64,000 nt of DNA from an uncultured Bacteroidota bacterium (GCA_902515405.1 CABXUS010000002.1:33886-97885); one strand, 5' to 3'. Counted from the stretch's first letter, positions 16,055-53,100 are shown. Translations and numbers: made by a program. Notes: generated by a model not told the origin, from the letters alone.

Positions 16055-16067
16055 TTAATATTAAGTT

Positions 16068-17066
<999 letters not shown>

Positions 17067-17076
17067 TTATTATAAT

Positions 17077-18063: not shown

Positions 18064-18094
18064 AATTACGTTATATTTTTAAAAAAGTAAGAAT

Positions 18095-19237
18095 CTAAGA
18101 TTCTAAATCTATCCAAATATTTCCTTTTTTATTGGATTCAACAGCTTTTTCAATAAAATCCATTCCTCTTACTCCTTCGTCAATAGTAGGAAATTCACCT
18201 TTCTTAATTTTTTCTTTTCTGATTGCTCGAGCAACTCCACGGTAAATATTGCCCATAGCATCAAAAATACCCTCTGGATGACCAGCAGGAAGCTTTGTTC
18301 CATCAAGAGACAACTTAGAATTATAGAAATGACCAGGTTTAAGGACTTGTAATGACTTATCAGCTGTGTAATAATATAAGTAGTTTGGATTTTCTTGTTC
18401 CCATGATAAAGATCCTTTAGAACCATAAATACTAATATTTAAATTGTTTTCCAGACCTGTTGCTATTTGTGTTGATCTGATAGTGCCTTTACAACCATTT
18501 TCCATTCTTACCAGAACACTAACATCAATATCTAAAGGATTATCATCATATAAGTTATTTAAGTCAGCTAGGATATTTTTTACTTTCATACCACAAACTA
18601 ATTCAAGCATATTAAATGCATGAGTGCCAATATCTGCAAGACAGGAACTTATTCCGCTAACCTCTGGATTTAATCTCCAAGTAGAGTTTCTTTTATCTTT
18701 ATCATGAATAATGTCATTTATCCATCCTTGAAAATATGTCGAATCTACTCTTTGAATATTACCAATAACATTATCAGAAATCATTTTGGTCATTTGTCTG
18801 ACCATTGGATAACCAGTATATGTATGTGTAACAGCAAAAACTAAATTTTTTGATTTTTTTATTTCTTTTAATTCTAAAGCTTCTTTTAGAGTTACTGATA
18901 ATGGTTTTTCACATATAACATGAAAGCCATTCATAAGAAAAGTTTTTGCCATTGGAAAGTGCAAAAAATTAGGGGTTAAGATGCATACGGCTTCAATTTT
19001 TATATTTGACTCAAGTTTAGATTCTACTTCAGCCATTTCTTCATAATTATTATAAACCCTTGATAAATCTAATCCTAAATTATTGGCAGTACTTATATTA
19101 ATTTTAGAATTAGAACTAAAAACACCCCCAACTATTTCATAGCGATCAAACATTACTGCAGCGACCTTATGAAGAACTCCAATGAGTGAGTCGTTACCTC
19201 CACCTACAAAACCAAGTTTAATTTTATTGCTAGGCAT
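18095..19237 (-). CDS. Gfo/Idh/MocA family oxidoreductase
   Basis: GFVGGGNDS nucleotide-binding, CEKPLSVTLKEA motif. Confidence 0.92.
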   Translation of the reverse strand: MPSNKIKLGFVGGGNDSLIGVLHKVAAVMFDRYEIVGGVFSSNSKINISTANNLGLDLSRVYNNYEEMAEVESKLESNIKIEAVCILTPNFLHFPMAKTFLMNGFHVICEKPLSVTLKEALELKEIKKSKNLVFAVTHTYTGYPMVRQMTKMISDNVIGNIQRVDSTYFQGWINDIIHDKDKRNSTWRLNPEVSGISSCLADIGTHAFNMLELVCGMKVKNILADLNNLYDDNPLDIDVSVLVRMENGCKGTIRSTQIATGLENNLNISIYGSKGSLSWEQENPNYLYYYTADKSLQVLKPGHFYNSKLSLDGTKLPAGHPEGIFDAMGNIYRGVARAIRKEKIKKGEFPTIDEGVRGMDFIEKAVESNKKGNIWIDLES

Positions 19238-20450
19238 TTTTATATCTTATTTTTTCTAATTTTTTTCTGTTTAAATACAATATCCCAAAGAATACTACTA
19301 ATATTAATGGAAAATAGGTAATATTTCCTAGAGTTGCTTTTCCAGCTGCAAGTTCTGCTAAATCTTGTGTCAATCCTGAATCTAATGCATTCTGAGTATT
19401 TTCATCAATCCATGATCCTATTACAGGCTGCCATATTCCAGTTGCAAGCATACCAGCTCCACCAACCAATGACATACCCAAAGCACCTGTTTTTGGGAGA
19501 TATTCTGAAACAAAACCTATCATCGTTGGCCAGAAATAACAAACTCCAAAAGCAAACAATATAGCTACAAAATAAAGAGATTTTCCATCAACAACAGATA
19601 AAAGATAAATTGCTAAAGTTGAAACTATTGCAGACATAAAAAGAACTCCAACAGGATTTAATTTATGAACTATAGGGCCAGCAAAGTATCTTCCTACGGC
19701 CATAACGCCAGTCACCATAGCTAAAATCAACATTGGACTTGCTCCGGATTTATCTAATAGAGGAGCTAGCCATTGTTGAGTACCCAACTCTGTAACAGCT
19801 GTTAATGTCATACACGCGGCAATAAAAACAAACAATGGAGTTAGAGTAGATTTTAAGTTTATCATTGTATCGGTTTCAATATTTTCAGATTTTGGAAATA
19901 GTGATTTAAAAAACATATATCCATAAATTAAAGTAGGCAAAATCATAGAAGCTATTTTTATTTGCCATCCCAAAGACATAGTATTTAATAACTCAACAAC
20001 TAATGAACCAATAACAATTCCACCTGGGAACCAAACATGGAATTTATTTAACATTGTCGTTCTATTGTCTGAGTGCATATCAGCGATTAATGGATTACAA
20101 GCAGCCTCAACGGAGCCATTAGCAAATCCAATCAAAAAAGATGATAAAAGAAGTGTGGTAAACCCATCTGCATAAATTGTCATTACAAGACCTATTAAAT
20201 GAGAAAGAAAAGCTGCAACAAGTAATTTCTTTGGACCAAAATAATTATACAAAAGTCCTCCAAATATTGTAGCAACGGGAAAGCCCCAAAAGGCCATTGC
20301 ATTAATCCATCCTAGTTGAGTATTGTTCAAACCAAAATCGACACCTAGTTCTGTAAGAATACCAGCTCTAATGGCAAATGTCATTGCAGTTACAGTTAAA
20401 GCGATACATGAAGCATTAAATAATGCTTTTTTTGAAATATTTAATTCCAT
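19230..20450 (-). CDS. MFS transporter (sugar permease-like)
   Basis: 12-TM MFS profile; overlaps the Gfo/Idh gene by 8 bp. Confidence 0.88.
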   Translation of the reverse strand: MELNISKKALFNASCIALTVTAMTFAIRAGILTELGVDFGLNNTQLGWINAMAFWGFPVATIFGGLLYNYFGPKKLLVAAFLSHLIGLVMTIYADGFTTLLLSSFLIGFANGSVEAACNPLIADMHSDNRTTMLNKFHVWFPGGIVIGSLVVELLNTMSLGWQIKIASMILPTLIYGYMFFKSLFPKSENIETDTMINLKSTLTPLFVFIAACMTLTAVTELGTQQWLAPLLDKSGASPMLILAMVTGVMAVGRYFAGPIVHKLNPVGVLFMSAIVSTLAIYLLSVVDGKSLYFVAILFAFGVCYFWPTMIGFVSEYLPKTGALGMSLVGGAGMLATGIWQPVIGSWIDENTQNALDSGLTQDLAELAAGKATLGNITYFPLILVVFFGILYLNRKKLEKIRYKNA

Positions 20451-32799: not shown

Positions 32800-32800
32800 T

Positions 32801-34480: not shown

Positions 34481-34483
34481 AAT

Positions 34484-35812: not shown

Positions 35813-35818
35813 AATATG

Positions 35819-37297
35819 TTAGTTTATAATTTTTAATAGATTTTCTTTCCACAAATTGTAGGCATCTTTGTAAGAGGATTTATTATTTTCAGGTTCAAAT
35901 GATTTGACGTAATCATTTTTAGTTGTTTTTTGTGAATATGACTTAAAATTTTTTGTATTGTAACCAGCTGCTCTTGCGGCACCGTAAGCCCCTGTTGTAT
36001 CATAAATTTCTATCTCTCTTTCTAAGACTGTTGATATTGTATTAGAAAAGATTTCAGAACGAAATAAATTATCATTTCCAGCTCTTACTAATTTGGGTGT
36101 AAAATTATCATTAATTAAGATTTCCATTCCATATATAAATGAAAATGCAATTCCCTCAAGTGATGCTCTATACAAATGTTCTTTTGAGTGTCTATTAAGA
36201 TTAAGGTTTTTTAAACATGTTCCAATATTTTTATTATTGAACATTCTTTCACTACCATTTCCAAAAGGATAAACAAGCAAACCATTAGAACCTACTTTGA
36301 CTTCACTTGCAAGATTATTCATTTCATCATATTCTCTTGCCGAAGTTAGGTTTTTTAACCACTTATATTGAATTCCTGCTCCGTTTATACATAAAAGTTT
36401 ACCAATCAACTTATTAGAATTAGAATAATTTACATGTGCAAAATTATTTAAGCGTAGCGATTCCTTAGATTTAATACTGTCTGTTAAAGCATATAATACA
36501 CCAGAAGTTCCTCCAGTTGCAGCTACTTCTCCAATATTCAATACATTTAAAGTCATAGCATTGTTTGGTTGATCTCCTGCTCTATATTTTATTGGTGTTC
36601 CTTTTTCAAGTCCAGTTTCTTTAGATCCAATGTAAGAAACGTAGCATTGATCACTAAAGTTTTCTACAATATCAGGTATTAAATCATTATCAATATTATA
36701 GTAATCTAGAAGCCAATTAGCAGTTTTATTTTCTTTGAAATCCCAGAACATACCCTCGGAAAGGCCAGTTATTGTTGATGAAATATCTCCTGAAAGCTTG
36801 TAGGAAATATAATCACCTGGTAATAAAAATTTATAAATTTTCTGGTATAAATCAGGTTCATTTCTTTTTACCCACGCAAGTTTAGATGCTGTAAAATTGC
36901 CAGGAGAATTTAATAAATGATTAGAACATTTATCTGATCCAATTTCATTAAAAGCTTTATTGCCAATTTCAACAGCTCTCCCATCACACCAAATTATAGA
37001 ATTTCTTAAAGATTTTCCATTTTTATCAATAACAACTAAGCCATGCATTTGATATGAAATACCCACACCAATAATATCCTTAGAACGAATTTGACTTTCA
37101 TTAATTATTCTTTTTGTTCCTGAACATATTAAATCCCACCAGTAATCAGGATCTTGTTCAGCCCATCCATTTGACTTTGAAATAATATCCATTTCATTTT
37201 TTGGCTCTTGAATCAAGTTAACTTTCTCACCAGATTCTGCATTAGTTAATGCAATCTTGAGTGAAGAACTACCTAAATCATAGCCTATGTAATACAT
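35819..37297 (-). CDS. xylB: Xylulokinase (FGGY)
   Basis: [37 protein letters not shown]-like AGDQPNNAM, adjacent to xylA. Confidence 0.93.
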
Positions 37298-37302
37298 AAT
37301 AT

Positions 37303-38346
37303 TTATTCTATTATTGTATTTATAGTTTCTATAGAACCATCTTCTTTATGAAACATCTCAGTATATTTTACATTTCTCAAAAAATCTTTTCCTGAAATTT
37401 GAGTATCATGGTAAAAGAAATACCATTTATTATCAACTTCCAATGTTGAGTGATGGTTTGTCCACCCTTGGACAGGGTTATTCATAATTCCTTGGTAAAC
37501 AAAAGGTCCATAAGGGTTGTCACTTGTAGCATATACAATGAGATGAGTATTTCCGGTCGAATAACTTAAATAATATATACCATCTTTTTTGTGAACCCAT
37601 GCTGCTTCAAAAAATCGTCTTTCATGATCTTTTGTTAAAATTGGCATGCCTTCCTTATCAATAATTCTAACTGGTTTTGGTTCTTCAGCAAAACTTACCA
37701 TATCATCAGACATTAAAGCAATTCTTGGTGAAATTGCTGGACTATTAGGTATGCCATTATCTTGAGTTTCACAACCTGATGGTGTGTACTGATTGTTTTC
37801 ATCCCATCGTTGTAATTGACCTCCCCAAATACCTCCTATATACATGTAATATTTTCCGTCATCATCTTTATACACACTTGGATCCATGCTGTAGCTTCCC
37901 TCAATAGGATCTTTCTTAGATTTAAAAGGACCCTCAGGTTTGTTTGAGACTGCTACTCCAATTTTAAAAATATCTTCTTTATCTTTTGTAGGAAAATATA
38001 AGTAATATTTTCCATCTTTTTCAGCAGCATCTGGTGCCCAAAATTGTCTTTTAGCCCAGGGAACATCATTTAAGTCAAGTGCGACGTCGTGAATCGTCAC
38101 AGGTCCTCCAATAGAATCCATTGACAAAACCCTGTAATCTCTCATAGCATATTGGCTACCACAATCATCATATAATGGATCTTTTTCAATTATATCGTGA
38201 GAGGGATAAATGTAAATTTTTCCATTGAATAAATGCGCAGATGGATCAGCAGTGAAAATTTCCGAAACTAAGGGGTCATTTAAAAAATTTTTTTGGCAAT
38301 AAGAAAATGATGTAAAGATTAGTAATAGAATTATTATTTTTTTCAT
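37303..38346 (-). CDS. GH43 family glycoside hydrolase (beta-xylosidase/arabinofuranosidase-like)
   Basis: [57 protein letters not shown]. Confidence 0.9.
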
Positions 38347-39818
38347 TTTATAAATATTTTATTTTCTGAGAAATCTCTCATGTTTTTAAGTTTTCTTGAA
38401 TACTTTTCAACAATATTTTTATTTTCTGGATAATGTGAAATATTAATTGACTGATTTTTATCATTTTTCATATCAAATAACATTTTTTGCGTAACAATAA
38501 TTTTAGTTCCAGAAACATGTGTTTTCGCCCCATATTTATTCTTTCGTGTCTCTGGATAATAAAGAATCTCGTGATATGAGTATTCTTTATCTTGAACAAC
38601 CTCTCTAAACTGATATCTACTGTAAATTTGGTCTTTAAAATCTAGATTTGGGTTTTTTAATAATTGAACAAAACTTTTACCGTGAATGTAATCAGGAGGA
38701 TTTAATCCAGCAAGTTCACTAATAGTAGGGTATATATCTACATATTCAACCAATGCATCAGATTTCACATTTGATTTCATACCTGGTGAAGAAACAATTA
38801 ATGGGACATGAATTGCTTCTTGAAATGTATGATGTTTACACCAAAAACCATGTTCGCCTAGAAAAAAACCGTGATCACTCCAAAATACAATTGTGGTATT
38901 TTCTCTCAGATCAAGATCATCAAGAGCATTAATTAATTTACCAAGCATTGCGTCCATATAGCTTACACTTGCATAATATGACTTAATTAAATCCTTTTCC
39001 ATTTGAGCTGATACAGGGCCATTTTGGGGAATGTCTAAATAAGCGTTTCTTAACTCAGACCATTGATGATTAGCTCGTGATGGAGCGTTAATTGGAATAT
39101 CTCTTAGATTAGAATAGACAATATCATCATCACTGTACAGATCACCATATTTTTGTGGCTGGATAAAAGGTAAATGTGTGGAAATATAACCAACTGCCAG
39201 AAAAAAAGGATCACCTGACTTTTTAAAATTGCTGAGTGTTTTAATTGCATAATCAGTCAATTTGCCATCATTATAGGCATCGTCACTAACATTTGCATAT
39301 TCAAAAGCTGGACCTTTCAATTTACCATTTGATGGGTGACGTTCGTTTCTATCTTTTATAGATTTTATAGATTTAGGATTTTGATATCCAGTAAAATTTT
39401 GAAATGATTTGTGAATATCCCATTCATCAATATTATCTCTTGAATTATGATATATCTTTCCAAGAGATGCTGTTTTATATCCATTTTTTCTAAAAAGTTT
39501 TGCAAGTGTTACTGCTTTAGGTAAATCTTCATCAGCTCTTGAATAATATCTATAAAATCGAGAGTTATTTCCCCTTACTCCAGTTAAAATACTTGCTCTG
39601 CTAGCACCACAAACAGCAACATTTGTATAAGCTTGATTAAATTGAACACCTTCTCTCGCCAACTTATCAATATTTGGTGTTATCATCTGATCATAACCAT
39701 ATGAATTAATTAGAGGTCTTAAATCATCAACGCCAATAAATAATATGTTTTGCTTTTTCTCTTGTGAAAATGATGATAACCATAAAAAAAGAAACACATA
39801 GAATAGTCTAAAATTCAT
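38343..39818 (-). CDS. Type I sulfatase (iduronate-2-sulfatase-like), Cys-type
   Basis: NILFIGVDDLRPLINSYG; VCGASRASILTG formylglycine motif; ATGA overlap with GH43 gene. Confidence 0.93.
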   Translation of the reverse strand: MNFRLFYVFLFLWLSSFSQEKKQNILFIGVDDLRPLINSYGYDQMITPNIDKLAREGVQFNQAYTNVAVCGASRASILTGVRGNNSRFYRYYSRADEDLPKAVTLAKLFRKNGYKTASLGKIYHNSRDNIDEWDIHKSFQNFTGYQNPKSIKSIKDRNERHPSNGKLKGPAFEYANVSDDAYNDGKLTDYAIKTLSNFKKSGDPFFLAVGYISTHLPFIQPQKYGDLYSDDDIVYSNLRDIPINAPSRANHQWSELRNAYLDIPQNGPVSAQMEKDLIKSYYASVSYMDAMLGKLINALDDLDLRENTTIVFWSDHGFFLGEHGFWCKHHTFQEAIHVPLIVSSPGMKSNVKSDALVEYVDIYPTISELAGLNPPDYIHGKSFVQLLKNPNLDFKDQIYSRYQFREVVQDKEYSYHEILYYPETRKNKYGAKTHVSGTKIIVTQKMLFDMKNDKNQSINISHYPENKNIVEKYSRKLKNMRDFSENKIFIK

Positions 39819-39845
39819 TTAATTTGTTTTAAATTGAATTAAAAA

Positions 39846-39864
39846 AGGAGGACTTCATCCTCCT
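39846..39864 (-). terminator. Intra-PUL rho-independent terminator (minus strand)
   Basis: AGGAGGA-cttca-TCCTCCT, followed on the minus strand by a T-run; lies between the 113-aa gene and sulfatase. Confidence 0.8.
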
Positions 39865-39888
39865 ATTATGTTTACAAATAAAAATAAC

Positions 39889-40230
39889 TTACTGTTTTCT
39901 TGCCTCATTAGCTACTTTTAAAAGCTCTTGAGCTAACTTATTACCAAATCTTTTTGTAAGTTTTTCTTTAATATTATTGTAACCAACTCTATAAATTGCC
40001 TTTTTTTCTTCAGCTGAAGATGCACCACTTTGTTTAATACTATTTGCATTTTCAACAATTTGAGCTAATTGAACTTTACTAAAAAAAATAGCATCTTTTT
40101 CATTTAGATTCATTTTTTCAATTACATAATTTGATATTTTATCCGCGTTTTTTTGTTGCCATTTAGTAGCATTTTGAGAAAATGTAAAAAGTGGCAAAGT
40201 CAGAAATATTATAAATAAAATCTTTTTCAT
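39889..40230 (-). CDS. Small secreted helical protein of unknown function
   Basis: Signal peptide MKKILFIIFLTLPLFTFSQ then a charged helical region; follows susD. Confidence 0.7.
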   Translation of the reverse strand: MKKILFIIFLTLPLFTFSQNATKWQQKNADKISNYVIEKMNLNEKDAIFFSKVQLAQIVENANSIKQSGASSAEEKKAIYRVGYNNIKEKLTKRFGNKLAQELLKVANEARKQ

Positions 40231-40234
40231 ATTA

Positions 40235-41818
40235 TTAATTTATTAATTCGTTAGTATTAATTTCACTAAGTGGAATAGCAAGTTTCATTATTTCAGCTTG
40301 ATTAGTTGAAAAGGGAACTTCTCTATTTGCCGCATATTTTTTAGCACCAACGGCAACTTTTGTTGTACCAATAGCATTGTTGTGAGGTAAAATTGTATTG
40401 TCTAAAAAATATTGCATTCCTCTTCTTCTTACATGAAAAGAATCTTGCCCCTCACCGATTAATTCAATTTTATACTCATTCATAATAGCATCTCTGAAAG
40501 AAGCTTGTCCATTACTAAATTCAGCTCTAACTGGTACACCAGCTCTATCAAGAACTGGCTGTAAATATGTCATTTGCTGGCCATTACCTAATTCATTAGA
40601 TATCTCAGCTAACATTAATAAAAGTTCTGCATATCTCATATCAACAATATTTTGACTATTAAATTGATTTTTATGAGATCTATCTTTTTCTGTCCATTTA
40701 AATAAATATGGGTGAGAATTTCCAAAGTTACTTCTCCAAGTTGCTGAGGGATATGTTCTAACCCTTGCAGCTGGTTTGTCGTATCTAAAATAATCATATA
40801 AATAGGTTGCCGCATATCTTTTATCAGGCATGGTATTTAGATTATTTGGATTGTAGGTTAAGCCACCACCGTATGTTTTTAAGTGATTGTCATGTTGAAA
40901 TGCTGTAACTCTAAACCAGCCAAAATGTTGTCCAGCTTTATATTTCCACGGTGTAAAATTTCTTCCCATTTGAGAATTTGTTGCATCCTGTGAAATTTGT
41001 AATTCAAAGATAGACTCTGATGAATTTTCGCCTTCCACTGTGAATAAACTACCAAAATCAGATACAAGTGAATATTGTCCATAAGCTTTTATACCTTCAT
41101 CATATGCCATTGTCCAATAATCCATTGACCCACCAGAGGTTTGAAGACTTGCATTTGTGGCAATTGCCATATAAATTTTAGACAATAACATATTAGCGGC
41201 ATATTGTTTAGGATATCCGACACCGGCATTTCCATTCATTAAACTTGAAGCCATTTGAAGGTCAGATATAATTTGACTGTAAATATCTATTTCAGGAGAC
41301 AAAGCTTTATTAGTATTCCCTTGAGTTGGTAAGTCTGTCCATAAAGGAAGATCACCCCAAAGTGTAACTAATCTAAAATATGACCATGCTCTTACAAAAT
41401 ATGCGTGTCCAGCAACATCATTAAAAGCAACTTCGTCTTGACTTTGAGGGTCTGAAAACGTATTTACATGAGTAATAACTCCATTGGCTCTTGCAATAGT
41501 TTGGTATAATCCTTGCCACAAAAATTCAGCATCAAGGTGATACCCAGGTTTTAAAGAACACAATGTAGTCATATCTCTTGTATTGATTCTGTTTCCACCT
41601 TTGCCAGTATACATTAATCCTGAAAATAGATTTTCAATAAATAAGCGTCTTTCCTGATTATCATATGAAGTAATAGATTGATATATACCATCTCTAGCTG
41701 CCTCAGCACTTTGAACTTCTTGATATAAATTTTCAAGAAGAAAAGGAGGATTTTCTTCCAATTCACATGATATTGAAAACAACATTGGAATTATTAGAAA
41801 GTATTTTAAGTATTTCAT
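40235..41818 (-). CDS. susD: SusD/RagB family lipoprotein (start possibly 41845)
   Basis: MKYLKYFLIIPMLFSISC lipobox; SusD features (YFRLVTLWGDLPLWT, RYAELLLMLAEISNELGN). Confidence 0.93.
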   Translation of the reverse strand: MKYLKYFLIIPMLFSISCELEENPPFLLENLYQEVQSAEAARDGIYQSITSYDNQERRLFIENLFSGLMYTGKGGNRINTRDMTTLCSLKPGYHLDAEFLWQGLYQTIARANGVITHVNTFSDPQSQDEVAFNDVAGHAYFVRAWSYFRLVTLWGDLPLWTDLPTQGNTNKALSPEIDIYSQIISDLQMASSLMNGNAGVGYPKQYAANMLLSKIYMAIATNASLQTSGGSMDYWTMAYDEGIKAYGQYSLVSDFGSLFTVEGENSSESIFELQISQDATNSQMGRNFTPWKYKAGQHFGWFRVTAFQHDNHLKTYGGGLTYNPNNLNTMPDKRYAATYLYDYFRYDKPAARVRTYPSATWRSNFGNSHPYLFKWTEKDRSHKNQFNSQNIVDMRYAELLLMLAEISNELGNGQQMTYLQPVLDRAGVPVRAEFSNGQASFRDAIMNEYKIELIGEGQDSFHVRRRGMQYFLDNTILPHNNAIGTTKVAVGAKKYAANREVPFSTNQAEIMKLAIPLSEINTNELIN

Positions 41819-41848
41819 TTTATATATTGATTTTAAGTATTTCATTTT

Positions 41849-44800
41849 TTAAAAAGTTAAATTTACACCAACTAGAACAGATCTTGAGTTTGGCTTATTG
41901 TTCCAGTCAACACCTTGAATTAATCCGTCATACATAAATGTTGTTATTTCAGGATCATAACCTGAATAATTTGTCCATGTAAATAAGTTTGAACCTGTGA
42001 CATAAACATTAGCAGATTTTATAAAATTATCTGATTTCATTGGAATGTCATAATTCATTGTTATGTTTTTAAGTCTTAAATAACTACCATCTTCAACAAA
42101 TCTATCCATAGCTGCTGCAAATAAGTTTGCTGAATAGCCTAGTCTAGGATATGTTCCACTAGGATTTTCAGAGGACCATCTATCATTCCATGCCTCACTC
42201 AGAATATTTCTATAGGTACCCTCTGCAAATCCAAATCTATACATATTTCCATTTACTATATCATTCCCCTCAGTACCATTAAATAAAGCTCTAAGTGAGA
42301 AGTTTTTATAAGATATATTTAGATTAAAACCATAAATATAATCTGGGTTTGGATTACCAATTATAGTTCTATCATCTAAATCAACCACTCCATCACCATT
42401 TAAGTCTAATGCTTTGATATCGCCAGGTTGTGACATGGCCCCATTAATTATGTACATTTGGTCTCCGGATTGAAAAACACCATCTGTTTTCCATCCATAA
42501 AACAATGCTGTTTCTTGTCCTTCTAAGAAAATGTTTAAAGGAAACTTTATACTATTTCCTCTACTTGGAGCATTACCTAAATAAGACGGGATTTGTTGAA
42601 CACCATAATTACCATTACCATCATCCATTAAAACATTTCCTGGTGTAAGACCAAGATTTTCAATTTTAGTTTTATTAAATGCAATATTTCCACCAACTGA
42701 AAGATTGAAATCTCCTTTCTCATGTAGAATCACATCTAAACCTAGCTCAAGACCTCTGTTTTGCAATGTTCCTCTGTTAATTAACATATTTCTAAAACCA
42801 GATGAAGTAGGAATTGGAGTTTGTTGCAATAAATCTTTTGTGTCTTTTTCATATACATCAATAGTGCCAGAAATCTTTCCATTATTAAAACCAAAGTCAA
42901 TACCTACATTTAATTGTTCTGTAGTTTCCCATGTTAAATCTGGGTTTGGAATATTGCTTAAAATTATAGGAACAGTCGTTCCATTAGTTGGCGTTCCATA
43001 TAAACTAGATGAGGCACCATAATTAGGAAGAGTTCCATAAGGGCCAATACCATGGTTACCAATTTGTCCCCAACCTGCTCTTAGCTTGAGACTTGAAAAT
43101 AAATCTAAATTTTGAATAAACTTTTCACTTCCAGCTCTCCATGCAAGTGCAAATGAGGGAAAAAATCCATAACGATTATCCTCTGAAAACTTTGACACAC
43201 CATCCCTCCTAAAACTAGCAGTAAACACATACTTATTTTTAAAGGTATAATTTACTCTACCAAGAACCGAGAACAACTGCTGATCAGCAGCTCGTAAATT
43301 TAGTGGATTTGAAATCACTTGACCTAAAAATGGTTGATCTATTCCAAGCGAAGCTGTTACAAAATCCTGAACAGCATATGTGCTATTAGAAACATCTCTA
43401 ACATCATAAGTGATACCGAGTGTGGCATTTACCCTGTGATTTCTATTTATGTTACGATTATATCTTAAAAAATTATTTACTTGATAAGTAAGAGCATTTA
43501 ACTTCATTTGTTGATATAAACCATTAGCATTTGCTCCCTGCCAAGTTGTAAGTCCATAAAATCTTTTTCTGTCCTTATCTCTTAGGTTTCCTCCAAATCT
43601 AAATTCATATTGTAATCCAGGAATATTAAACTTGTATTTTAAAGCAAGAGAAGCAATAACCCTATTTTCATTTGATTCATCTGTAAAATCATCAATCCAA
43701 GATATGGGATTAGATAAGGCACTGCCATCAAAGAAATCGCTTAAATCCTCTAAACCATTTGCTCTAATTGGATTGTAGGTAGCTGTCTGTTGAACAAAAC
43801 TTTGATCTCCACCAATTAAGTCACCACCTTCTGCAAAATCTGATTCACTAAAAAAAGCAGAAAATCTAGCTTCAACTCTTAACTTATCATTGATATCATA
43901 GTTTAAGTTCAACCTTAAGTCAGTCGTCTTAAAACTAGCATTTTCAATTAATCCGTTCATGTCATTAAAGCCAGCTGATAAATAATAATCTCCAGCATCA
44001 CTAGCACCTGAAAATGTAACTCCTAAATTGGAACTGATTCCTTGCTTATAAATGTAATCTTGCCAGTCATAAATTAAATTTGGAGTATTATCAATCACAT
44101 CAGATGGGGTTCCATCTGGATTAGTTAAAAATGAATAAACATTATCTCCATCTATTCTATACCTTGGACTTTCATCAGCAGCAAGCCTAGCTGCATTAGA
44201 ATAATTTGCATATCCAACCCCATCTAGCATATCATATGTTTTTGTTATTTCTGTAACACTTGTAGTAAAATATGCGTTAAATTTTCCTTTTCCATCCTCC
44301 TTTGATCCAGATTTTGTTGTAATTAAGACAACACCATTTGCTCCTCTAGAACCATAAATTGCAGTTGCAGATGCATCTTTTAAAATTTCTATTCTTTCAA
44401 TATCACGTGGATTAATACCATTTAAACCACTTTGAGCATCCTGGCCAGTATTTCCCGTTCCAACAGCACTAACATCTTCTCCAGCAGATGATATGATAAC
44501 ACCATCAATAACATAAAGAGGCTCATTATTTCCTCTCAAGCTGTTTGTTCCTCTAATTCTAACACTAACACCTGAGTTAGGATTTGCAGCATTTTGAGTT
44601 ACTTGAACACCTGCTGCTCTTCCTTGCAATAGCTGATCAACAGTATTAGAAGCTCTGGAAACATCATCGGAAATCTTTACGGAACTAACAGAACCTGTTA
44701 AATCTCTTTTAAGTACTGTACCGTAGCCTACAACTACAACTTCATCAAGAGCTTCAGTGTCGGGTTGAAGATTTACTGATATAGAAATTTGGTTTGAAAC

Positions 44801-45076
44801 ATCAACTTCTTCATTCAAGTATCCGATATAGGAGATTATCAAAGTTTGTTCTGCATCAAGAGGAATTGAAATTGAAAAGTTACCATCAAAATCGGTGATA
44901 GCACCAATAGTTTCTGATCCTTTAAGCTGAACTGTTGCACCAGGTAGTGGTGAACCATTTTCATCATTTACTAAACCAGTAACCGTTTTAGATTGTGCTA
45001 AAACAAAGAATGGTAATAGTAAAAAAAGTATAATAATTTTTTTGATTTTCATTTTATTTTTTTTAGGGATCGCCAA
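41849..45076 (-). CDS. susC: SusC/RagA TonB-dependent receptor
   Basis: Carboxypeptidase-like domain, VVVGYGTVLKRDLTGSVSSV, plug LRIRGTNSLRGNNEPLYVIDGV and SATAIYGSRGANGVVLITTK. Confidence 0.97.
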   Translation of the reverse strand: MAIPKKNKMKIKKIIILFLLLPFFVLAQSKTVTGLVNDENGSPLPGATVQLKGSETIGAITDFDGNFSISIPLDAEQTLIISYIGYLNEEVDVSNQISISVNLQPDTEALDEVVVVGYGTVLKRDLTGSVSSVKISDDVSRASNTVDQLLQGRAAGVQVTQNAANPNSGVSVRIRGTNSLRGNNEPLYVIDGVIISSAGEDVSAVGTGNTGQDAQSGLNGINPRDIERIEILKDASATAIYGSRGANGVVLITTKSGSKEDGKGKFNAYFTTSVTEITKTYDMLDGVGYANYSNAARLAADESPRYRIDGDNVYSFLTNPDGTPSDVIDNTPNLIYDWQDYIYKQGISSNLGVTFSGASDAGDYYLSAGFNDMNGLIENASFKTTDLRLNLNYDINDKLRVEARFSAFFSESDFAEGGDLIGGDQSFVQQTATYNPIRANGLEDLSDFFDGSALSNPISWIDDFTDESNENRVIASLALKYKFNIPGLQYEFRFGGNLRDKDRKRFYGLTTWQGANANGLYQQMKLNALTYQVNNFLRYNRNINRNHRVNATLGITYDVRDVSNSTYAVQDFVTASLGIDQPFLGQVISNPLNLRAADQQLFSVLGRVNYTFKNKYVFTASFRRDGVSKFSEDNRYGFFPSFALAWRAGSEKFIQNLDLFSSLKLRAGWGQIGNHGIGPYGTLPNYGASSSLYGTPTNGTTVPIILSNIPNPDLTWETTEQLNVGIDFGFNNGKISGTIDVYEKDTKDLLQQTPIPTSSGFRNMLINRGTLQNRGLELGLDVILHEKGDFNLSVGGNIAFNKTKIENLGLTPGNVLMDDGNGNYGVQQIPSYLGNAPSRGNSIKFPLNIFLEGQETALFYGWKTDGVFQSGDQMYIINGAMSQPGDIKALDLNGDGVVDLDDRTIIGNPNPDYIYGFNLNISYKNFSLRALFNGTEGNDIVNGNMYRFGFAEGTYRNILSEAWNDRWSSENPSGTYPRLGYSANLFAAAMDRFVEDGSYLRLKNITMNYDIPMKSDNFIKSANVYVTGSNLFTWTNYSGYDPEITTFMYDGLIQGVDWNNKPNSRSVLVGVNLTF

Positions 45077-45350: not shown

Positions 45351-45424
45351 GGTCGCGTAGCTCAGCTGGATAGAGCATCTGCCTTCTAAGCAGACGGTCG
45401 CACGTTCGAATCGTGCCGCGATCA
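45351..45424 (+). tRNA. tRNA-Arg (anticodon TCT)
   Basis: GGTCGCG...CGCGATC acceptor, AGCTCAGCTGGATAGAGC D-arm, CTTCTAA anticodon loop, CGTTCGAATCG T-arm. Confidence 0.95.
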
Positions 45425-45428
45425 CTTT

Positions 45429-45730: not shown

Positions 45731-47767
45731 ATGAAAATTGTCCTAAAAATAATATTAATACTTATCTTTTTTTCTTCATGTCAAAAAAACAAAATTGGAG
45801 AAAATTTTATTTTATTACCATCTGTAAAAAAAGCAGAATACAATGGAAAATTATCATTATTTAACAGTAAATCAGATTTTGTTTTTTATTCTGAATCAAA
45901 TGAACTTCCAGTTTTATTAAGTCAAACATTCAATCTGAAAAAAGGCACAACAAGTAAACATAACTTATCATTTAGAATTGACAATGAATTAGACATACCT
46001 GATGAGGGTTATCATTTAAATATTTCAAAAGAAAATATTGAAATTATAGCAAAGGATAAAGCTGGATTGTTTTATTGTTTTAATTCATTAAACCAGTTAA
46101 TTACTGATTCAAATAATCAAAACATCAATTTACCAATTATTTCAATTAAGGACTTTCCTTCTTTAAAGTATAGATCAATTCATATAGATGTTAAGCACCA
46201 TACTGAAAAAAAAGAATATTATTTAAAACTTATTGACGAATTAGCTTCTTTAAAAATCAATGGCATAATCATAGAATTTGAAGATAAACTTGGATACGAA
46301 AAAAGACCAATTATTGCTGCTCCGGATAGTTATTCGATTTCTTGGTGGAAGAGCTTAAGTTACTATGCTAATGAAAGGAATATTAAGATAAGTCCCCTAA
46401 TCCAAGGTTTGGGGCATGCCTCTTTTATTCTTAAACATGACAAGTACAAAGCTTTAAGAGATGTATCAGATAATGATTGGGCTTTCAATCCCCTTAATAC
46501 AGAAACATATGATGTTCAATTTGATCTTTACAAAGATGCAATTGAAGCTACCCCTTATGGTCAATTTTTACATGTAGGAGGTGATGAAGTAAGAGTTATT
46601 GATAGAGATGGAAAAAAGGGATTCGAGCTTAATCTACTGTGGTTAAATAAAGTTTCAGATTTCGCTAAAAAAAATAATAGAATACCAATATTTTGGGATG
46701 ATATGTATCTAAAACATGGTGGTGTTTGGAATATTACAAGGAATACAAGTCTTTCAAAGAATGATGTAAATAATATTTGGAAAAAAAATAAAAAACAACT
46801 TACTGAGTATATTGATGATTTTCCAAAAAACTGCATATATATGAGATGGAATTATTTTTACCCATTGGCTGAAGGAAATCTAAAAACAATAGACTGGTAT
46901 AAAGAAAATAACATGAAAGTAATGGGGGCTACTGCTGGACAAACAAGATGGATATTAATGCCTCAAGATTATAGTAATATTGAATCGATTAAATCATTTT
47001 CATTGACATCTGTTAAAAAAAATTTAGATGGTTTATTATTAACTCTATGGGATGATGATTCTCCGCATTTTGAGTTGTACAAAAGAGGTATTTATTCCTT
47101 TGCTGAATATACCTGGGGAGGAAAAGATTTGAATCCTAATGATTTTAAATCAAATTTTAGACATCGATATTTTTCTCCAGATTTTAGTGATATTGAGTAT
47201 AGTTTTATTGATGAATTAGATATGCCAGTTAGAGATTGGGCTAATTTATTTGTTGTTGAAAAAAAGCATAGAAATCAAATTACTAAAACTAGTTTGCCAT
47301 TAGAAACTCATATTGTAGAGCTTCCAGAAATAAACAATTCAGGAAAATGGAATCAAAAATTTGATAAAAAAATATCTATTGCCAAAAACCACATTAAAGA
47401 TCTAAAAATAATAATTGAAAAAATAAAACTGCAACAAACGAAAACAATAAGAGGAAGTTATGCATTAGAAGTTTATGAGCAAGTTGCAAAAGTGGCTTTA
47501 TTTAGCTATGAAACTTTTATTGCTATTTCAAATTTTGACAACGGAAAAAATGATCTAAGTAGTTTGTTAAATAAAGGAAATGAATTTGTTTCAATCAGAA
47601 ATAATTTTGAAGAAGTATACTCAAAAAGTAGAAACATTATCAAGCCAGACAACTATATTCTTGATCAAGATCATCACAATCACACAGCTAATCAAACATT
47701 AAATATGGATTGGCAATTTATAGCTGAAATTAAACTTTTTGAAAAAATTAACTTAACTTATAAGTGA
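45731..47767 (+). CDS. GH20 beta-N-acetylhexosaminidase-like lipoprotein
   Basis: Lipobox FFSSCQK; GH20 catalytic pair in FLHVGGDEVRV; preceding small domain and FPSLKYRSIHIDVKHH. Confidence 0.85.
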   Translation: MKIVLKIILILIFFSSCQKNKIGENFILLPSVKKAEYNGKLSLFNSKSDFVFYSESNELPVLLSQTFNLKKGTTSKHNLSFRIDNELDIPDEGYHLNISKENIEIIAKDKAGLFYCFNSLNQLITDSNNQNINLPIISIKDFPSLKYRSIHIDVKHHTEKKEYYLKLIDELASLKINGIIIEFEDKLGYEKRPIIAAPDSYSISWWKSLSYYANERNIKISPLIQGLGHASFILKHDKYKALRDVSDNDWAFNPLNTETYDVQFDLYKDAIEATPYGQFLHVGGDEVRVIDRDGKKGFELNLLWLNKVSDFAKKNNRIPIFWDDMYLKHGGVWNITRNTSLSKNDVNNIWKKNKKQLTEYIDDFPKNCIYMRWNYFYPLAEGNLKTIDWYKENNMKVMGATAGQTRWILMPQDYSNIESIKSFSLTSVKKNLDGLLLTLWDDDSPHFELYKRGIYSFAEYTWGGKDLNPNDFKSNFRHRYFSPDFSDIEYSFIDELDMPVRDWANLFVVEKKHRNQITKTSLPLETHIVELPEINNSGKWNQKFDKKISIAKNHIKDLKIIIEKIKLQQTKTIRGSYALEVYEQVAKVALFSYETFIAISNFDNGKNDLSSLLNKGNEFVSIRNNFEEVYSKSRNIIKPDNYILDQDHHNHTANQTLNMDWQFIAEIKLFEKINLTYK

Positions 47768-47768
47768 A

Positions 47769-48569
47769 ATGAAAAATATTTATAATTGGCACAAAAATTT
47801 TACCGAAAAAAAGAGATTGTATTGGGATTTATCTCACTACCAAGCTTATTGGATATCTTGGTTTAAAGGAATAGTAATGGGTTTAATAATTGCTTTTCTT
47901 GTTTCTTGTAATTCCTTAAACAATAATGCTGAATGGATATACTTATTTGATGGAGAAAGCACAAATGGCTGGAGAGCATATAATGGAGAAGAAATTCCAA
48001 GTAAATGGGCAGCTGTAGATGGGAATTTAACTTTTGACACTCAGTTGAAGAAAGAAGAAAATTGGGAAGGTGGTGGAGATATCATATATTACCTTGAAGA
48101 ATTTGATAATTTTGAATTATACCTAGAATGGAAATTACCAGTTGGTGGTAACAGTGGAGTTTTTTATCATGTAAAAGAAGGTTATTCAGCTCCATATGCT
48201 GTTTCTCCTGAATATCAATTAATTGATGATTTTGGATGGGGAAAATTAAACAACTCTGAACTTGAGGATTGGCAAAAAGCTGGAGCAGACTATGCAATGT
48301 ATTCTGCAGATGAAAAAATCAAAAAATTAAAACCTGCAGGTGAATGGAATACTTCAAAAATAAAATACACTGAAGAAAAAGTAGAACACTGGATGAATGG
48401 TGAACTTATAGTTTCTTTTACTCCCTACTCTAAAGATTGGTTTGAAAGAAGAAACTCTGGAAAATGGGATCAGTATCCTGATTACGGAAAATTCAAAAAA
48501 GGCTACATAGCACTACAAGACCATGATAGTCCCATATGGTTCAGAGAAATAAAAATCAAAAAATTATAA
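47769..48569 (+). CDS. DUF1080/3-keto-disaccharide hydrolase domain lipoprotein
   Basis: WIYLFDGESTNGWRAYNGEEIPSKWAAVDGNLTF... GNSGVFYHVKEG... WNTSKIKYTEEKVEHWMNGELIVSF; IALQDHDSPIWFREIKIKKL. Confidence 0.92.
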   Translation: MKNIYNWHKNFTEKKRLYWDLSHYQAYWISWFKGIVMGLIIAFLVSCNSLNNNAEWIYLFDGESTNGWRAYNGEEIPSKWAAVDGNLTFDTQLKKEENWEGGGDIIYYLEEFDNFELYLEWKLPVGGNSGVFYHVKEGYSAPYAVSPEYQLIDDFGWGKLNNSELEDWQKAGADYAMYSADEKIKKLKPAGEWNTSKIKYTEEKVEHWMNGELIVSFTPYSKDWFERRNSGKWDQYPDYGKFKKGYIALQDHDSPIWFREIKIKKL

Positions 48570-48570
48570 A

Positions 48571-49914
48571 ATGATAAATAGAAGAAAGTTTTTAAAAAAT
48601 TCATCCATTTTTGGAATTGCTCCTTTTTTACCTAATTATAATATTTTTAAGTCTATGAATAAAAAAATAAGAACAGCTCATATTGGAGTTGGAGGAATGG
48701 GAAAAGCAGATTTAAATGATATAGCTTCTCATAAAAAAGCTCAAATAGTTGCCTTATGTGATGTCGACAACAAAGCTCTTGTTGAAGCTGGAAAATTATT
48801 TCCAGAGGCAAAACTTTTTAAAGACTATAGGGTTATGCTGAAAAATATTCATGATGAAATTGATGCAGTTATTGTTTCAACACCAGATCACACTCATGCA
48901 CCAGCATCTATTATGGCAATGGAGCTAAATAAACACGTTTATTGTCAAAAACCTCTAACTCACCATGTTTCAGAAGCTAGAGCGATGAAAAAGCTAGCTG
49001 AAGAAAAAAATCTAGTTACACAAATGGGTATCCAAGTTCATTCTTTTTATGATTATAAACTTGCAACATTGTTAATTAAATCTGGTATAATTGGAAAAGT
49101 TGACAAAGTTAGAGCATGGTGTCCAAAGAATTGGGGTTATGATGGTCCAGAACCCTCAGGAAATGACCCAATTCCAAATTATCTAGACTGGAATTTATGG
49201 TTAGGAACTTCAAAAGAAAGACCATTTAAAGATAAAATTTATCATCCAGGGATGTGGAGAAAACTGGTTGATTTTGGATGTGGAACATTAGGCGACATGG
49301 GAGTTCATATTTTTGATACTCCATATAATGCTTTAGACCTAGACGTACCTTACACTATAAAGAATAAATGTAGAAAACCAAACAATTTTGGCTTTCCGGA
49401 AAAAAATTATGTTGAGTATGTTTTTCCTGGAACTAAATATACCACAGATACATTAACATGGATATGGGAAGATGGAAAAGATTCTCCAAAAAAACATAAA
49501 GATTTAAAATTACCTAATGGTGATAAACTTCCATTACAAGGAGCTATGTTTATGGGAGAAAAAGGAAAATTACTTCTTCCACATTTTATGGAACTACCTA
49601 AATTGATTGTAGATAATGAATATAAAGATTTTGATGTTTCAAAATTTGTTGATAACGGAGAATTAAGTGAAATACCTGTCAGAGATTATGGTAAAGAGTC
49701 GCACCTACATTATCATCAATTTATTGATACATGTCTTGGGGAAGATGAGTGTACTGCTCCATTTTCATATTCATCAAGATTAACTGAAACTATTCTTTTA
49801 GGAGTAATAGCTGGAAGATTTCCAGGGAAAACATTGCACTGGGATAGCTTAAAAGCAAAATTTAAGGAAGAAGAGGCTAATAAATATTTAGATTCTACTT
49901 ATAGAAAATTTTAA
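48571..49914 (+). CDS. Gfo/Idh/MocA family oxidoreductase with Tat-type signal
   Basis: NRRKFLKNSS Tat-like motif; AHIGVGGMGKADL; YCQKPLTHHVSEA. Confidence 0.92.
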   Translation: MINRRKFLKNSSIFGIAPFLPNYNIFKSMNKKIRTAHIGVGGMGKADLNDIASHKKAQIVALCDVDNKALVEAGKLFPEAKLFKDYRVMLKNIHDEIDAVIVSTPDHTHAPASIMAMELNKHVYCQKPLTHHVSEARAMKKLAEEKNLVTQMGIQVHSFYDYKLATLLIKSGIIGKVDKVRAWCPKNWGYDGPEPSGNDPIPNYLDWNLWLGTSKERPFKDKIYHPGMWRKLVDFGCGTLGDMGVHIFDTPYNALDLDVPYTIKNKCRKPNNFGFPEKNYVEYVFPGTKYTTDTLTWIWEDGKDSPKKHKDLKLPNGDKLPLQGAMFMGEKGKLLLPHFMELPKLIVDNEYKDFDVSKFVDNGELSEIPVRDYGKESHLHYHQFIDTCLGEDECTAPFSYSSRLTETILLGVIAGRFPGKTLHWDSLKAKFKEEEANKYLDSTYRKF

Positions 49915-49917
49915 TTT

Positions 49918-51294
49918 ATGAATAATTTTAGGAGAAGAGATTTTTTAAAATCATCAACACTTTTTGCAGGAGCAACCTTATTTAGCCCCTATTTACTTAG
50001 CTGTCAAAACCCAAACAATAAATTAAATATTGCCGTTATTGGTGTTGGAGGAAGAGGAGGCGCTAATTATAGTCCTATTTTAAAATCTGAAAACATAGTT
50101 GCCATGTGCGATGTTGATGACATTAGGGCAAAAGATGGATATGAGAAAATTAAATCTCAATTTCCAAATGTCAAAAAATTTACTGATTTCAGAGTGATGT
50201 ATGATAAAATGCATAATGAGATTGATGCTGTTATAATAAGTACGCCTGACCACACTCACTTTGCTCCTGCCATAATTGCAATGGAATTGGGGAAACATGT
50301 GTATATGGAAAAACCATTGGCTCATAATGTATGGGAATGTAGGACTTTAAAAAAAGCCGCAAATTATTATAAAATTGTTTCTCAGATGGGCAACCAAGGC
50401 CATACAACTAATGGTGTTAGACAAATTAAAGAATGGTATGATGCAGGAATATTAGGTGAAGTTGAAGAAGTTCATGCTTGGATTGGGGAATTTAATTTTA
50501 GACCTGGACATTATTGGACACTGCCTGATAGCTTTCCCCCACCAAAAAATGAAATACCAAATCATTTAGATTGGGATTTATGGCTTGGTCCTGCTAAGAA
50601 AAGAGATTATAACCCAGTATATGTTCCTAAATCATGGAGAGGGTTTTTTGATTTTGGAAACGGTCAATTAGGAGATTGGTCATGTCACACACTAGATGGT
50701 CCATTTTGGACGCTAAATTTAGGTATGCCCACTGAAGTTGACTCTTATGTTGAGAACAGAATAAATAATCATCATTTTGTTTGTGAAAAATCAATTGTCA
50801 CATATAATTTTCCCAAGAAAGATGAAAGACCTTCGGTTAAAATGAAATGGTATGAAGGAGGATTTAAACCAGAAATTGACCCGTCATGGCCAATAAAGGA
50901 ACTTTGGGGTGGTGGAATGATAATGGTTGGATCAAAAAATTCCTTAATTACTGGGGGAAGACCAAATAATCCAAGGCTATTAATTTCTGATAATGAATGG
51001 GAAGAATTTCAAAATAATATTCCAGAACAGACAATTCCAAGACTCAAATGGGGAGATGAGACCCCTGTTCAAGAATGGATAGATGCAATTAAAAATAATT
51101 ACCTGCCTGAATCAAATTTTAATTATGGAGCTGACCTAACAGAAATGGCACTACTTGGAACCCTATCACAAAGATTTGGTGCTAAAATAATATATGATTC
51201 ACAAAACATGAAAATAACTAATCGTCCTGATATTGATGCATATATAAAAGAGCCAGCAAGAGAAGGATGGGAATACGGTAATTCAATTACTTAG
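49918..51294 (+). CDS. Gfo/Idh/MocA family oxidoreductase with Tat signal and lipobox
   Basis: FRRRDFLKSSTLFAGATLFSPYLLSC; AVIGVGGRGGANY; MEKPLAHNVWE. Confidence 0.92.
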   Translation: MNNFRRRDFLKSSTLFAGATLFSPYLLSCQNPNNKLNIAVIGVGGRGGANYSPILKSENIVAMCDVDDIRAKDGYEKIKSQFPNVKKFTDFRVMYDKMHNEIDAVIISTPDHTHFAPAIIAMELGKHVYMEKPLAHNVWECRTLKKAANYYKIVSQMGNQGHTTNGVRQIKEWYDAGILGEVEEVHAWIGEFNFRPGHYWTLPDSFPPPKNEIPNHLDWDLWLGPAKKRDYNPVYVPKSWRGFFDFGNGQLGDWSCHTLDGPFWTLNLGMPTEVDSYVENRINNHHFVCEKSIVTYNFPKKDERPSVKMKWYEGGFKPEIDPSWPIKELWGGGMIMVGSKNSLITGGRPNNPRLLISDNEWEEFQNNIPEQTIPRLKWGDETPVQEWIDAIKNNYLPESNFNYGADLTEMALLGTLSQRFGAKIIYDSQNMKITNRPDIDAYIKEPAREGWEYGNSIT

Positions 51295-52350
51295 ATTTTT
51301 AAAATAAGCTTGGACTCTATTTATAGAGTTTTGTCTTATATCTTCCCAAAATAAATTAATATCTCCCTTATGGTAATCTTTTAAAGTTGATATTAAAATT
51401 GTATTAATTAAACCAACTTTTGGAGTTTTTAAAAAAACACCTTTGTCAATATTATCAATTTTTAATGCTTTAGAAAAAACCTTGCCGTTTAGAAATAATA
51501 GGCCTTTGTGATTGGAAAAATTAGATGTTTTTTTTGAATCCCAAGTTATTGGGTTAGAGCACAAAGCATCAGAAAGCCATTGCTTTTCAATTGTATAATT
51601 ATATTTATCTTCTCTCTTAAATATTTTAAAAGTATTCCATGTGACAAAACCACCTGTTTCATTTGGATTTTCCATAAACTGCAAATCAAAAAAATCATTA
51701 TCTGTTATTTTAGTACCAGGCAAATAGGCAGCTATTAGCTTGTTTTTTAATTCTTTACCGTCAAAAAAATCTTGTAGTAATCTTTTAGCATGTCCAGAAC
51801 CTTGACTATGACCTGCAATTATAATTGGCTTACCATGATTGTAATTTTTAAGAAATGTTTCAAATGATCTTTTTATATCTTCATATGCTAGATTATATGC
51901 CTTTTCTCCCCCATTTTCCCATCTAAACTCATCAAATACTCTAAAATGGGCTTGTCTGTAATTTGGAGAATAAAGATTGCCTGAATCTAACCATGCAGTT
52001 GATTGATATTTAATAGAAGATTGCAATAAAACATTAGAGAAATCATTATCATATATATCTGAATTCCAATTAATATTTTTTCTATCAGTAAATAATGTTG
52101 GAACAATAAAAAAAACATCTACCATCATCAGGCCATTATTTTTATTTAAAAAAGTTAAATCAGATTTTTTTTCAGGATGAACTAGCCAATCATCTAAATT
52201 TAAATATGTTGGTTGCTTAGGTTTAGGATGTTTGTTAAAATCTGTTGTCTTATATTTAATCTCACCATTATTATCTTTTAATAAACCACATGATGATGAA
52301 CTAATAATTATAAGAAAAATGAACAATAATTTACTACTTTTAAAAAACAT
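51283..52350 (-). CDS. DUF3089 family alpha/beta-hydrolase-like lipoprotein (start re-assigned)
   Basis: MFFKSSKLLFIFLIIISSSSC lipobox from ATG 52350; VDVFFIVPTLF, IIAGHSQGSGHAKRLL nucleophile elbow. Confidence 0.85.
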   Translation of the reverse strand: MFFKSSKLLFIFLIIISSSSCGLLKDNNGEIKYKTTDFNKHPKPKQPTYLNLDDWLVHPEKKSDLTFLNKNNGLMMVDVFFIVPTLFTDRKNINWNSDIYDNDFSNVLLQSSIKYQSTAWLDSGNLYSPNYRQAHFRVFDEFRWENGGEKAYNLAYEDIKRSFETFLKNYNHGKPIIIAGHSQGSGHAKRLLQDFFDGKELKNKLIAAYLPGTKITDNDFFDLQFMENPNETGGFVTWNTFKIFKREDKYNYTIEKQWLSDALCSNPITWDSKKTSNFSNHKGLLFLNGKVFSKALKIDNIDKGVFLKTPKVGLINTILISTLKDYHKGDINLFWEDIRQNSINRVQAYFKNLSN

Positions 52351-52371
52351 TAAATCTAATTTATAATAAAT

Positions 52372-53100
52372 ATGAGAATTCAATTAAAAAAAATTTTTCT
52401 AATAACACAAATTTTTATTTTTCTAGCTTGTAATTCAAAAATAGATCAAAAGATCACAATTTCGAAAATAGAAGGATCTCCATCATTTGAAAGTTCTAAA
52501 CTCTCATTAACTGAACAAGTTAAAGTTGATGATGAATATCAATTTTCTTTTGACGTTTTTGAGTATGAACTAGGTATTAAAACTGAAACAGAATATGATT
52601 ATCACCTTGCTAATTCAGACAAAGGTCAACATATCCATTTTATTATAAATAATGAACCTTATTCTGCCTACTACTCTGAGAATTTTTTAAAAAAAATGGA
52701 TGACGAAAACAATGTAATTCTAGCATTTTTGTCTAGATCACATCATGAATCAGTCAAGAATCAAAATGCATATATTTTAACTCAAATTAGTGATGAGCCT
52801 ATTGATTTAAATAATGAATTTCTTTTTTACAGTAGACCAAAAGGCACTTACAAAGGGAAGGATACTGAAAAAGTTCTTCTAGATTTCTATTTAGTAAATA
52901 CAGATATATCTACTAATGGAAACAAGGTTAGAGCTACAATTGGCGATACTGTTTTCTTTATAGATGAATGGGCTCCATATTATATTGAAGGTTTAGAGGA
53001 AGGAGATACTCAAATTAAATTAGAGCTTATAGATTCGAACGGAAATTTAATCGATGTACCATTCAATCCATCAATAAAAACTGTAACCATTGAGAAATAA
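52372..53100 (+). CDS. Conserved hypothetical lipoprotein
   Basis: Lipobox IFLACNS; beta-rich with HIHFIINNEPYSAYY. Confidence 0.7.
   Translation: MRIQLKKIFLITQIFIFLACNSKIDQKITISKIEGSPSFESSKLSLTEQVKVDDEYQFSFDVFEYELGIKTETEYDYHLANSDKGQHIHFIINNEPYSAYYSENFLKKMDDENNVILAFLSRSHHESVKNQNAYILTQISDEPIDLNNEFLFYSRPKGTYKGKDTEKVLLDFYLVNTDISTNGNKVRATIGDTVFFIDEWAPYYIEGLEEGDTQIKLELIDSNGNLIDVPFNPSIKTVTIEK

Follow-up and report, generated by a model that had tools for sequence, protein, structure and literature searches.

Do four tightly packed genes for glycan-active proteins encode one pathway, and on which glycans would their products act? We addressed this question for an operon at positions 45731-51294 of a 64,000-nucleotide stretch of DNA from an uncultured Bacteroidota bacterium (GCA_902515405.1 CABXUS010000002.1:33886-97885; "the window" denotes this whole stretch). 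The operon encodes a glycoside hydrolase family 20 (GH20) protein, a DUF1080 protein and two Gfo/Idh/MocA (Gfo/Idh) proteins, here called GfoA and GfoB. Its host, represented by a 1.12 Mb assembly that is 72% complete (G000), is very likely a marine flavobacterium of the family Flavobacteriaceae. Oxidoreductive glycan cleavage has been recognized only recently, and an original prediction from this sequence had proposed that the four genes form a single module of this kind. Here, we find that no more than two or three genes belong to the conserved unit, whose core is DUF1080-GfoA, and that the full set was put together within a single lineage. With moderate confidence, we propose that a GH20 exo-hexosaminidase and an exported, two-protein GfoA/DUF1080 oxidoreductive glycosidase act on a glycan bearing N-acetylhexosamine (HexNAc), and that GfoB is a second, canonical 3-dehydrogenase that was probably already at the site.

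Results

A conserved DUF1080-GfoA pair

The four open reading frames (ORFs) all lie on the plus strand with junctions of 1, 1 and 3 bp, and Pfam searches confirmed the predicted GH20, DUF1080 and Gfo/Idh assignments. The same gene order is found in the congener G334 (85-89% identity) and in the single-cell genome AG-901-C03 (L103), and is therefore neither a chance arrangement nor an assembly artifact. All four genes occur together in only these three genomes of one genus, and the co-occurrence survey did not support the predicted four-gene module: only DUF1080 and GfoA are widely co-conserved. A GfoA profile scan of genome contigs from 84,980 species recovered at least 80 loci from Bacteroidota groups (60-88% identity); the counts given here are among the matches listed, 78 of which have upstream sequence. 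In 62 of these 78 loci, DUF1080 is encoded immediately upstream of GfoA in the same orientation, mostly with gaps below 60 bp; the corresponding figure for the remaining ORFs of these loci is 4 of 1008. A Tat (twin-arginine translocation) motif of the RRxF[LIV]K type is present in 55/62 GfoA proteins.

Other glycosidases join this pair recurrently. A GH109 gene, called at 50% identity or more to a Muriicola protein that itself matches PDB 6t2b at 6.5e-167, is found in the same orientation as GfoA and no more than 10 kb away in 14/80 loci. The GH20 subfamily joins GfoA in the window's genus, in genus g5 and in Muriicola, three lineages in all. The typical order in the latter two is GH20-GH109-DUF1080-(GH2)-GfoA; exceptions in g5 are G393, which lacks GH109 there, and G241, which has an additional reverse-strand Gfo gene. 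In G334, GH109 is located elsewhere, within a group of genes (SUMF-like, isomerase, Gfo, esterase-like, GH109) similar to the remaining half of the g5 cluster; GH109 was not found in the incomplete assembly of the window genome. Other identified GfoA neighbors are mostly housekeeping genes. No paper that mentions DUF1080 together with GH109 came up in a literature search.

Two relatives of glycoside 3-dehydrogenases with predicted Tat export

GfoA and GfoB carry the Gfo/Idh domain PF01408 (9.5e-21 and 1.2e-17), and for both the top NCBIfam model is NF058561, the BT_2158-family glycoside 3-dehydrogenase, to which they score as relatives (296 and 371 bits, respectively). The best PDB match of each is the Alistipes glucoside-3-dehydrogenase AL3 (8tdf/8tdh; 1e-76 for GfoB against 8tdf). 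AL3 is also the top fold match of the GfoA structure model (mean predicted local distance difference test score, pLDDT, 80; residues 1-29 unreliable), with a template modeling (TM) score of 0.77, compared to about 0.6 for other Gfo/Idh families. Both proteins combine a Rossmann domain with the QKP/EKP motif of the BT2158/AL3 family, and are presumed to oxidize the C3 position of glycosides with nicotinamide adenine dinucleotide (NAD). They are only about 36% identical to each other and fall into separate conserved groups. The Tat motifs noted in the original prediction are evident (MINRRKFLK and NFRRRDFLK), as is a lipobox-like LLSC in GfoB. TatC is encoded in the window genome and in two congeners; given both motif and TatC, the two proteins are predicted to be exported.

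It had also been suggested that these proteins might be GH109 enzymes, an identity that we reject. The GH109 C-terminal domain PF21252 was not found by Pfam in GfoA or GfoB, although it is present in a neighbor-type protein (L089), and neither protein has a GGHGG-type catalytic loop, which appears as SGHGG in the GH109 proteins of L078 and L089. GH109 structures match both proteins only weakly (E 1e-7 to 1e-4).

DUF1080 and GH20 proteins

The DUF1080 protein matches Pfam PF06439, '3-keto-disaccharide hydrolase', over its full length (1.6e-46; 159 bits against a gathering score of 26.8; profile positions 1-187 of 187) and has PDB matches to 3u1x (4e-46) and 8tda (1.4e-30). It is presumed to cleave a 3-keto-glycoside. 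At the level of family, PDB and fold matches, the proposal that DUF1080 and Gfo/Idh constitute 3-keto-glycoside machinery is thus borne out. The window genome encodes 7 DUF1080 domains in total, including two further DUF1080-Gfo/Idh neighbor pairs (L188, G000:C20; L190, G000:C8).

The GH20 protein has a lipobox-like FFSSC motif at its N-terminus and the domains PF00728 (5.8e-13) and PF02838 (7e-12). It belongs to a subfamily of roughly 700 residues found in 27/400 genomes of the host family, and the catalytic Asp-Glu pair (D285-E286) is invariant in 26 members. The structure model (pLDDT 88) is closest to GH20 hexosaminidases, and all 50 fold matches listed are GH20-type hexosaminidases or lacto-N-biosidase. 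Fold and catalytic pair place the protein in GH20, shared with β-N-acetylhexosaminidases such as PDB 4pys and 8qk1, and HexNAc-ase activity is predicted. Several features set it apart from these known enzymes: sequence identity is low (about 22% in the fold match with 4pys), subfamily members share a helical extension at the C-terminus, and the gene is linked to DUF1080. A DUF1080 gene lies within 3 kb of 10 of the 26 full-length subfamily loci. In five of these it is of the window type and shares the strand of the GH20 gene, and in the other five it is of a second type and divergently transcribed.

Genes for possible redox partners were seen near some loci. A pyrroloquinoline quinone (PQQ) dehydrogenase carrying cytochrome c as a further domain is encoded near or adjoining the GH20-subfamily gene in five genomes (L086, L087, L089, L094, L095), and possibly provides extra periplasmic sugar oxidation. 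Near GfoA, a DUF1501 and DUF1549/DUF1553 pair recurs (L104, L105, L106, L107, L113, L115, L148), its DUF1549/DUF1553 partner carrying a planctomycete-type cytochrome c domain. Each of these occurs in some loci only, and we therefore rejected the idea of a universal electron-transfer partner.

Probable assembly of the operon at a tRNA-flanked site

The surroundings are conserved in a congener, G151 (87% complete), where the order is XylB, GH43, sulfatase, SusD, SusC, tRNA-Arg(TCT), a 48-codon ORF, GfoB and the DUF3089 gene. GH20, DUF1080 and GfoA are missing from this site, and GfoB was probably there before the other three genes. The free-standing 48-aa ORF of G151 corresponds to the N-terminus of DUF1080 in the window, G334 and AG-901-C03. 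This N-terminus is unusually long, with a lipobox-like LVSC behind it at residues 44-47, and the DUF1080 orthologue of G241 (53%) has an ordinary short signal in place of the fused segment. In the simplest account, GH20 would have inserted ahead of the small ORF and DUF1080-GfoA between the small ORF and GfoB, with in-frame fusion. Alternatively, G151 may have lost the three genes, but that loss must then have left behind a small ORF ending in a stop codon of its own. We infer the direction of gain from a comparison of three or four genomes at the site. An ancient four-gene module was rejected: G151 has GfoB without the other three, and a GfoB orthologue is absent from the g5 and Muriicola clusters, where at most paralogues of 36-38% identity are present.

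The small ORF belongs to a wider group of 43-50-aa single-helix ORFs (consensus WHKNFTEK...SHYQ.YWISW.KG) that are free-standing in several small-genome flavobacteria; the group was noted at 47769-47909 and in L193, L194, L195, L196 and L198. In G056 and G277 the segment is likewise fused, there to a lipoprotein of the heavy-metal-associated type, and it is a recurrent N-terminal membrane module.

GfoB itself has different partners elsewhere. Its orthologue in G017 (58%) is part of a canonical 3-keto-glycoside operon encoding AraC, isomerase, MFS (major facilitator superfamily) transporter, Gfo, isomerase, DUF1080, the GfoB orthologue and ThuA, and the MFS-Gfo pair occupies an equivalent place in four further genomes. 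The G017 pair is orthologous to the window's own MFS-Gfo pair at 18095-20450 (Table 1), whose speculated connection to the operon is in this way supported. Contig C3 of the window genome encodes a DUF1080 protein and two isomerases of the canonical 3-keto operon type. From this orthology and the contig C3 genes, the canonical 3-keto-glycoside pathway appears to be present but dispersed in the window genome. In the interval 15197-20450, the MFS-Gfo pair directly adjoins genes for GAPDH, PFK and a protein that weakly resembles BadF/N-acetylglucosamine kinases, with scores below cutoffs.

Genomic setting

The original prediction had included no Sus pair. A SusC/SusD pair does lie immediately divergent from the operon (40235-45076, minus strand), but it belongs to a xylan-type polysaccharide utilization locus, and in G151, where the module is missing, it remains beside the xylan-type genes; we therefore rejected it as a module part. 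This locus (31693-45076) comprises SusC/D, sulfatase, GH43, xylulokinase, xylose isomerase, SSF symporter and GH10, with an adjoining LacI regulator. At the other end, the DUF3089 gene (51283-52383) is convergent with the operon and overlaps the end of GfoB by 12 bp.

Table 1. Features of the operon and of associated loci in the window
Feature	Position	Strand	Basis or remark
Cytoplasmic-type Gfo/Idh, probable 3-keto-sugar reductase	18095..19237	-	59% identical to the G017 gene adjoining the GfoB orthologue
MFS transporter paired with the preceding Gfo/Idh	19230..20450	-	68% identical to the G017 gene; PF07690
tRNA-Arg (TCT)	45351..45425	+	Upstream landmark common to four genomes; ARAGORN on window, G334, AG-901-C03 and G151 loci
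GH20 β-N-acetylhexosaminidase-like lipoprotein, uncharacterized ~700-aa subfamily	45731..47767	+	Pfam, D285-E286, fold model
N-terminal 47-codon segment of the DUF1080 ORF	47769..47909	+	Homologous to the free-standing 48-aa ORF of G151
DUF1080/3-keto-disaccharide hydrolase family protein, presumed eliminase-hydratase	47769..48569	+	PF06439, PDB matches
GfoA, Tat-motif Gfo/Idh/MocA, presumed sugar 3-dehydrogenase, DUF1080 partner	48571..49914	+	NF058561, 8tdf, AL3 fold, pair conservation
GfoB, Tat-motif and lipobox Gfo/Idh/MocA, presumed canonical glycoside 3-dehydrogenase, probably ancestral at the site	49918..51294	+	NF058561, 8tdf, G151 site

Discussion

Following export, we propose that GfoA, probably with tightly bound NAD, oxidizes the C3 position of the non-reducing sugar. 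DUF1080 would then eliminate the aglycone and rehydrate the product, and the 3-keto sugar might be reduced by GfoA or imported and then reduced in the cell, while GH20 would hydrolyze in the ordinary way alongside. In 2024 work on the oxidoreductive pathway, the dehydrogenase module reportedly performs both oxidation and reduction; the cycle may thus be redox neutral, and external recycling of the cofactor in the periplasm may be unneeded. GfoB would be a second glycoside 3-dehydrogenase of the BT2158/AL3 type, with its partners elsewhere: the MFS-Gfo pair at 18-20 kb and the DUF1080 and two isomerases on contig C3.

A HexNAc-bearing substrate is likely, because GH109 and GH20 recur as partners. 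For the predicted hexosaminide-trimming pathway, the 3-keto families of DUF1080 and Gfo/Idh held up, and the hexosaminide link through GH20 is plausible from gene context. A nagB gene was found in 5/5 module-bearing genomes tested and not in G151; given that nagB functions in the recycling of amino sugars as well, and that these are incomplete assemblies, we keep this as weak support. A broader proposal, that GfoA-DUF1080 is a Bacteroidota-wide, two-protein, Tat-exported oxidoreductive glycosidase specialized for N-acetylhexosaminides alongside GH20 and GH109, can be offered only tentatively.

The closest known relatives are the BT2156-BT2160-type pathways. Genetic evidence identifies BT2158 as a periplasmic glycoside 3-dehydrogenase that is required for trehalose, leucrose and palatinose (PMC11300592), and PMC9007349 cites BT2157, a DUF1080 protein, as a 3-ketotrehalose hydrolase. 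Like the window, these systems, including that of Alistipes AL3, pair an exported Gfo/Idh 3-dehydrogenase with DUF1080, and they provide the closest solved structures for both parts. In contrast, GfoA belongs to a clade of its own, with about 30% identity to AL3, the window DUF1080 is nearer to 3u1x than to 8tda, and the operon has GH20 or GH109 as partner without isomerase or MFS genes. The Caulobacter LacABC-DUF1080 route for 3'-ketolactose likewise places a DUF1080 hydrolase after periplasmic 3-oxidation (PMC9007349), but LacABC is a membrane-bound dehydrogenase complex, whereas in the window a Gfo/Idh protein, either soluble or anchored, is the presumed oxidant. GH109 α-N-acetylgalactosaminidases share Tat export, the Gfo/Idh fold and NAD-dependent transient oxidation chemistry, but there one protein performs all steps. 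The system is thus a variant of a known oxidoreductive system and no new class, with a probable amino-sugar slant.

Several observations weigh against our proposal. All four enzyme activities are predictions, and the NF058561 scores of GfoA and GfoB fall below the equivalog cutoff of 750 bits, which makes them relatives and not equivalogs. Only 5/80 GfoA loci have a member of the GH20 subfamily nearby, and 16/26 GH20-subfamily loci lack DUF1080 within 3 kb. When all GfoA-DUF1080 pairs are pooled, their distances are uncorrelated (r 0.08), because two DUF1080 subtypes (48 and 14 loci) share one GfoA clade; within the subtypes they do correlate (Mantel r 0.39 and 0.81, with 0/2000 permutations as high), as expected if the DUF1080 partner was swapped at least once, although these correlations reflect shared species history too.

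The rarity of GH20 at GfoA loci, the varied and mostly unrelated housekeeping genes among the other neighbors, and the use of trehalose, leucrose and palatinose by characterized relatives would all fit an alternative in which GfoA-DUF1080 acts on neutral glucosides or galactosides like BT2158/BT2157, with GH20 merely a co-regulated neighbor. We consider this unlikely in view of GH109 at 14 loci, the entry of GH20 in three lineages and, weakly, the distribution of nagB. The tight operon in three genomes, and the membership of GfoA and GfoB as exported relatives in the same enzyme family, might instead point to one dedicated hexosaminide pathway in which one Gfo/Idh protein oxidizes and the other reduces. 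Such a pathway is highly improbable given that GfoB stands at the G151 site without the other three genes, that its orthologues belong to a different operon type, and that the four genes are together in a single genus. Least probable of all is that GfoA, in the manner of GH109, would by itself be a complete NAD-dependent glycosidase, with DUF1080 being a carbohydrate-binding protein or unrelated hydrolase: superfamily, kind of Tat export and the true GH109 neighbors in related loci are in keeping with it, but the missing C-terminal domain and GHGG loop and the weak structure matches described above argue against it.

Collectively, our data favor a GH20 hexosaminidase working beside a GfoA-DUF1080 oxidoreductive glycosidase. 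The case would also illustrate the entry of a module into a tRNA-flanked site and its fusion to a new N-terminal segment. The uniform DUF1080-GfoA pair, recurrently accompanied by GH109 or GH20, presents an apparently unassayed enzyme pair with a likely substrate class, and orthologues are available in named culturable strains of Maribacter, Zobellia, Algoriphagus and Muriicola. If the pair is indeed specialized for N-acetylhexosaminides, the reach of the 3-keto route would widen to include amino-sugar glycans.

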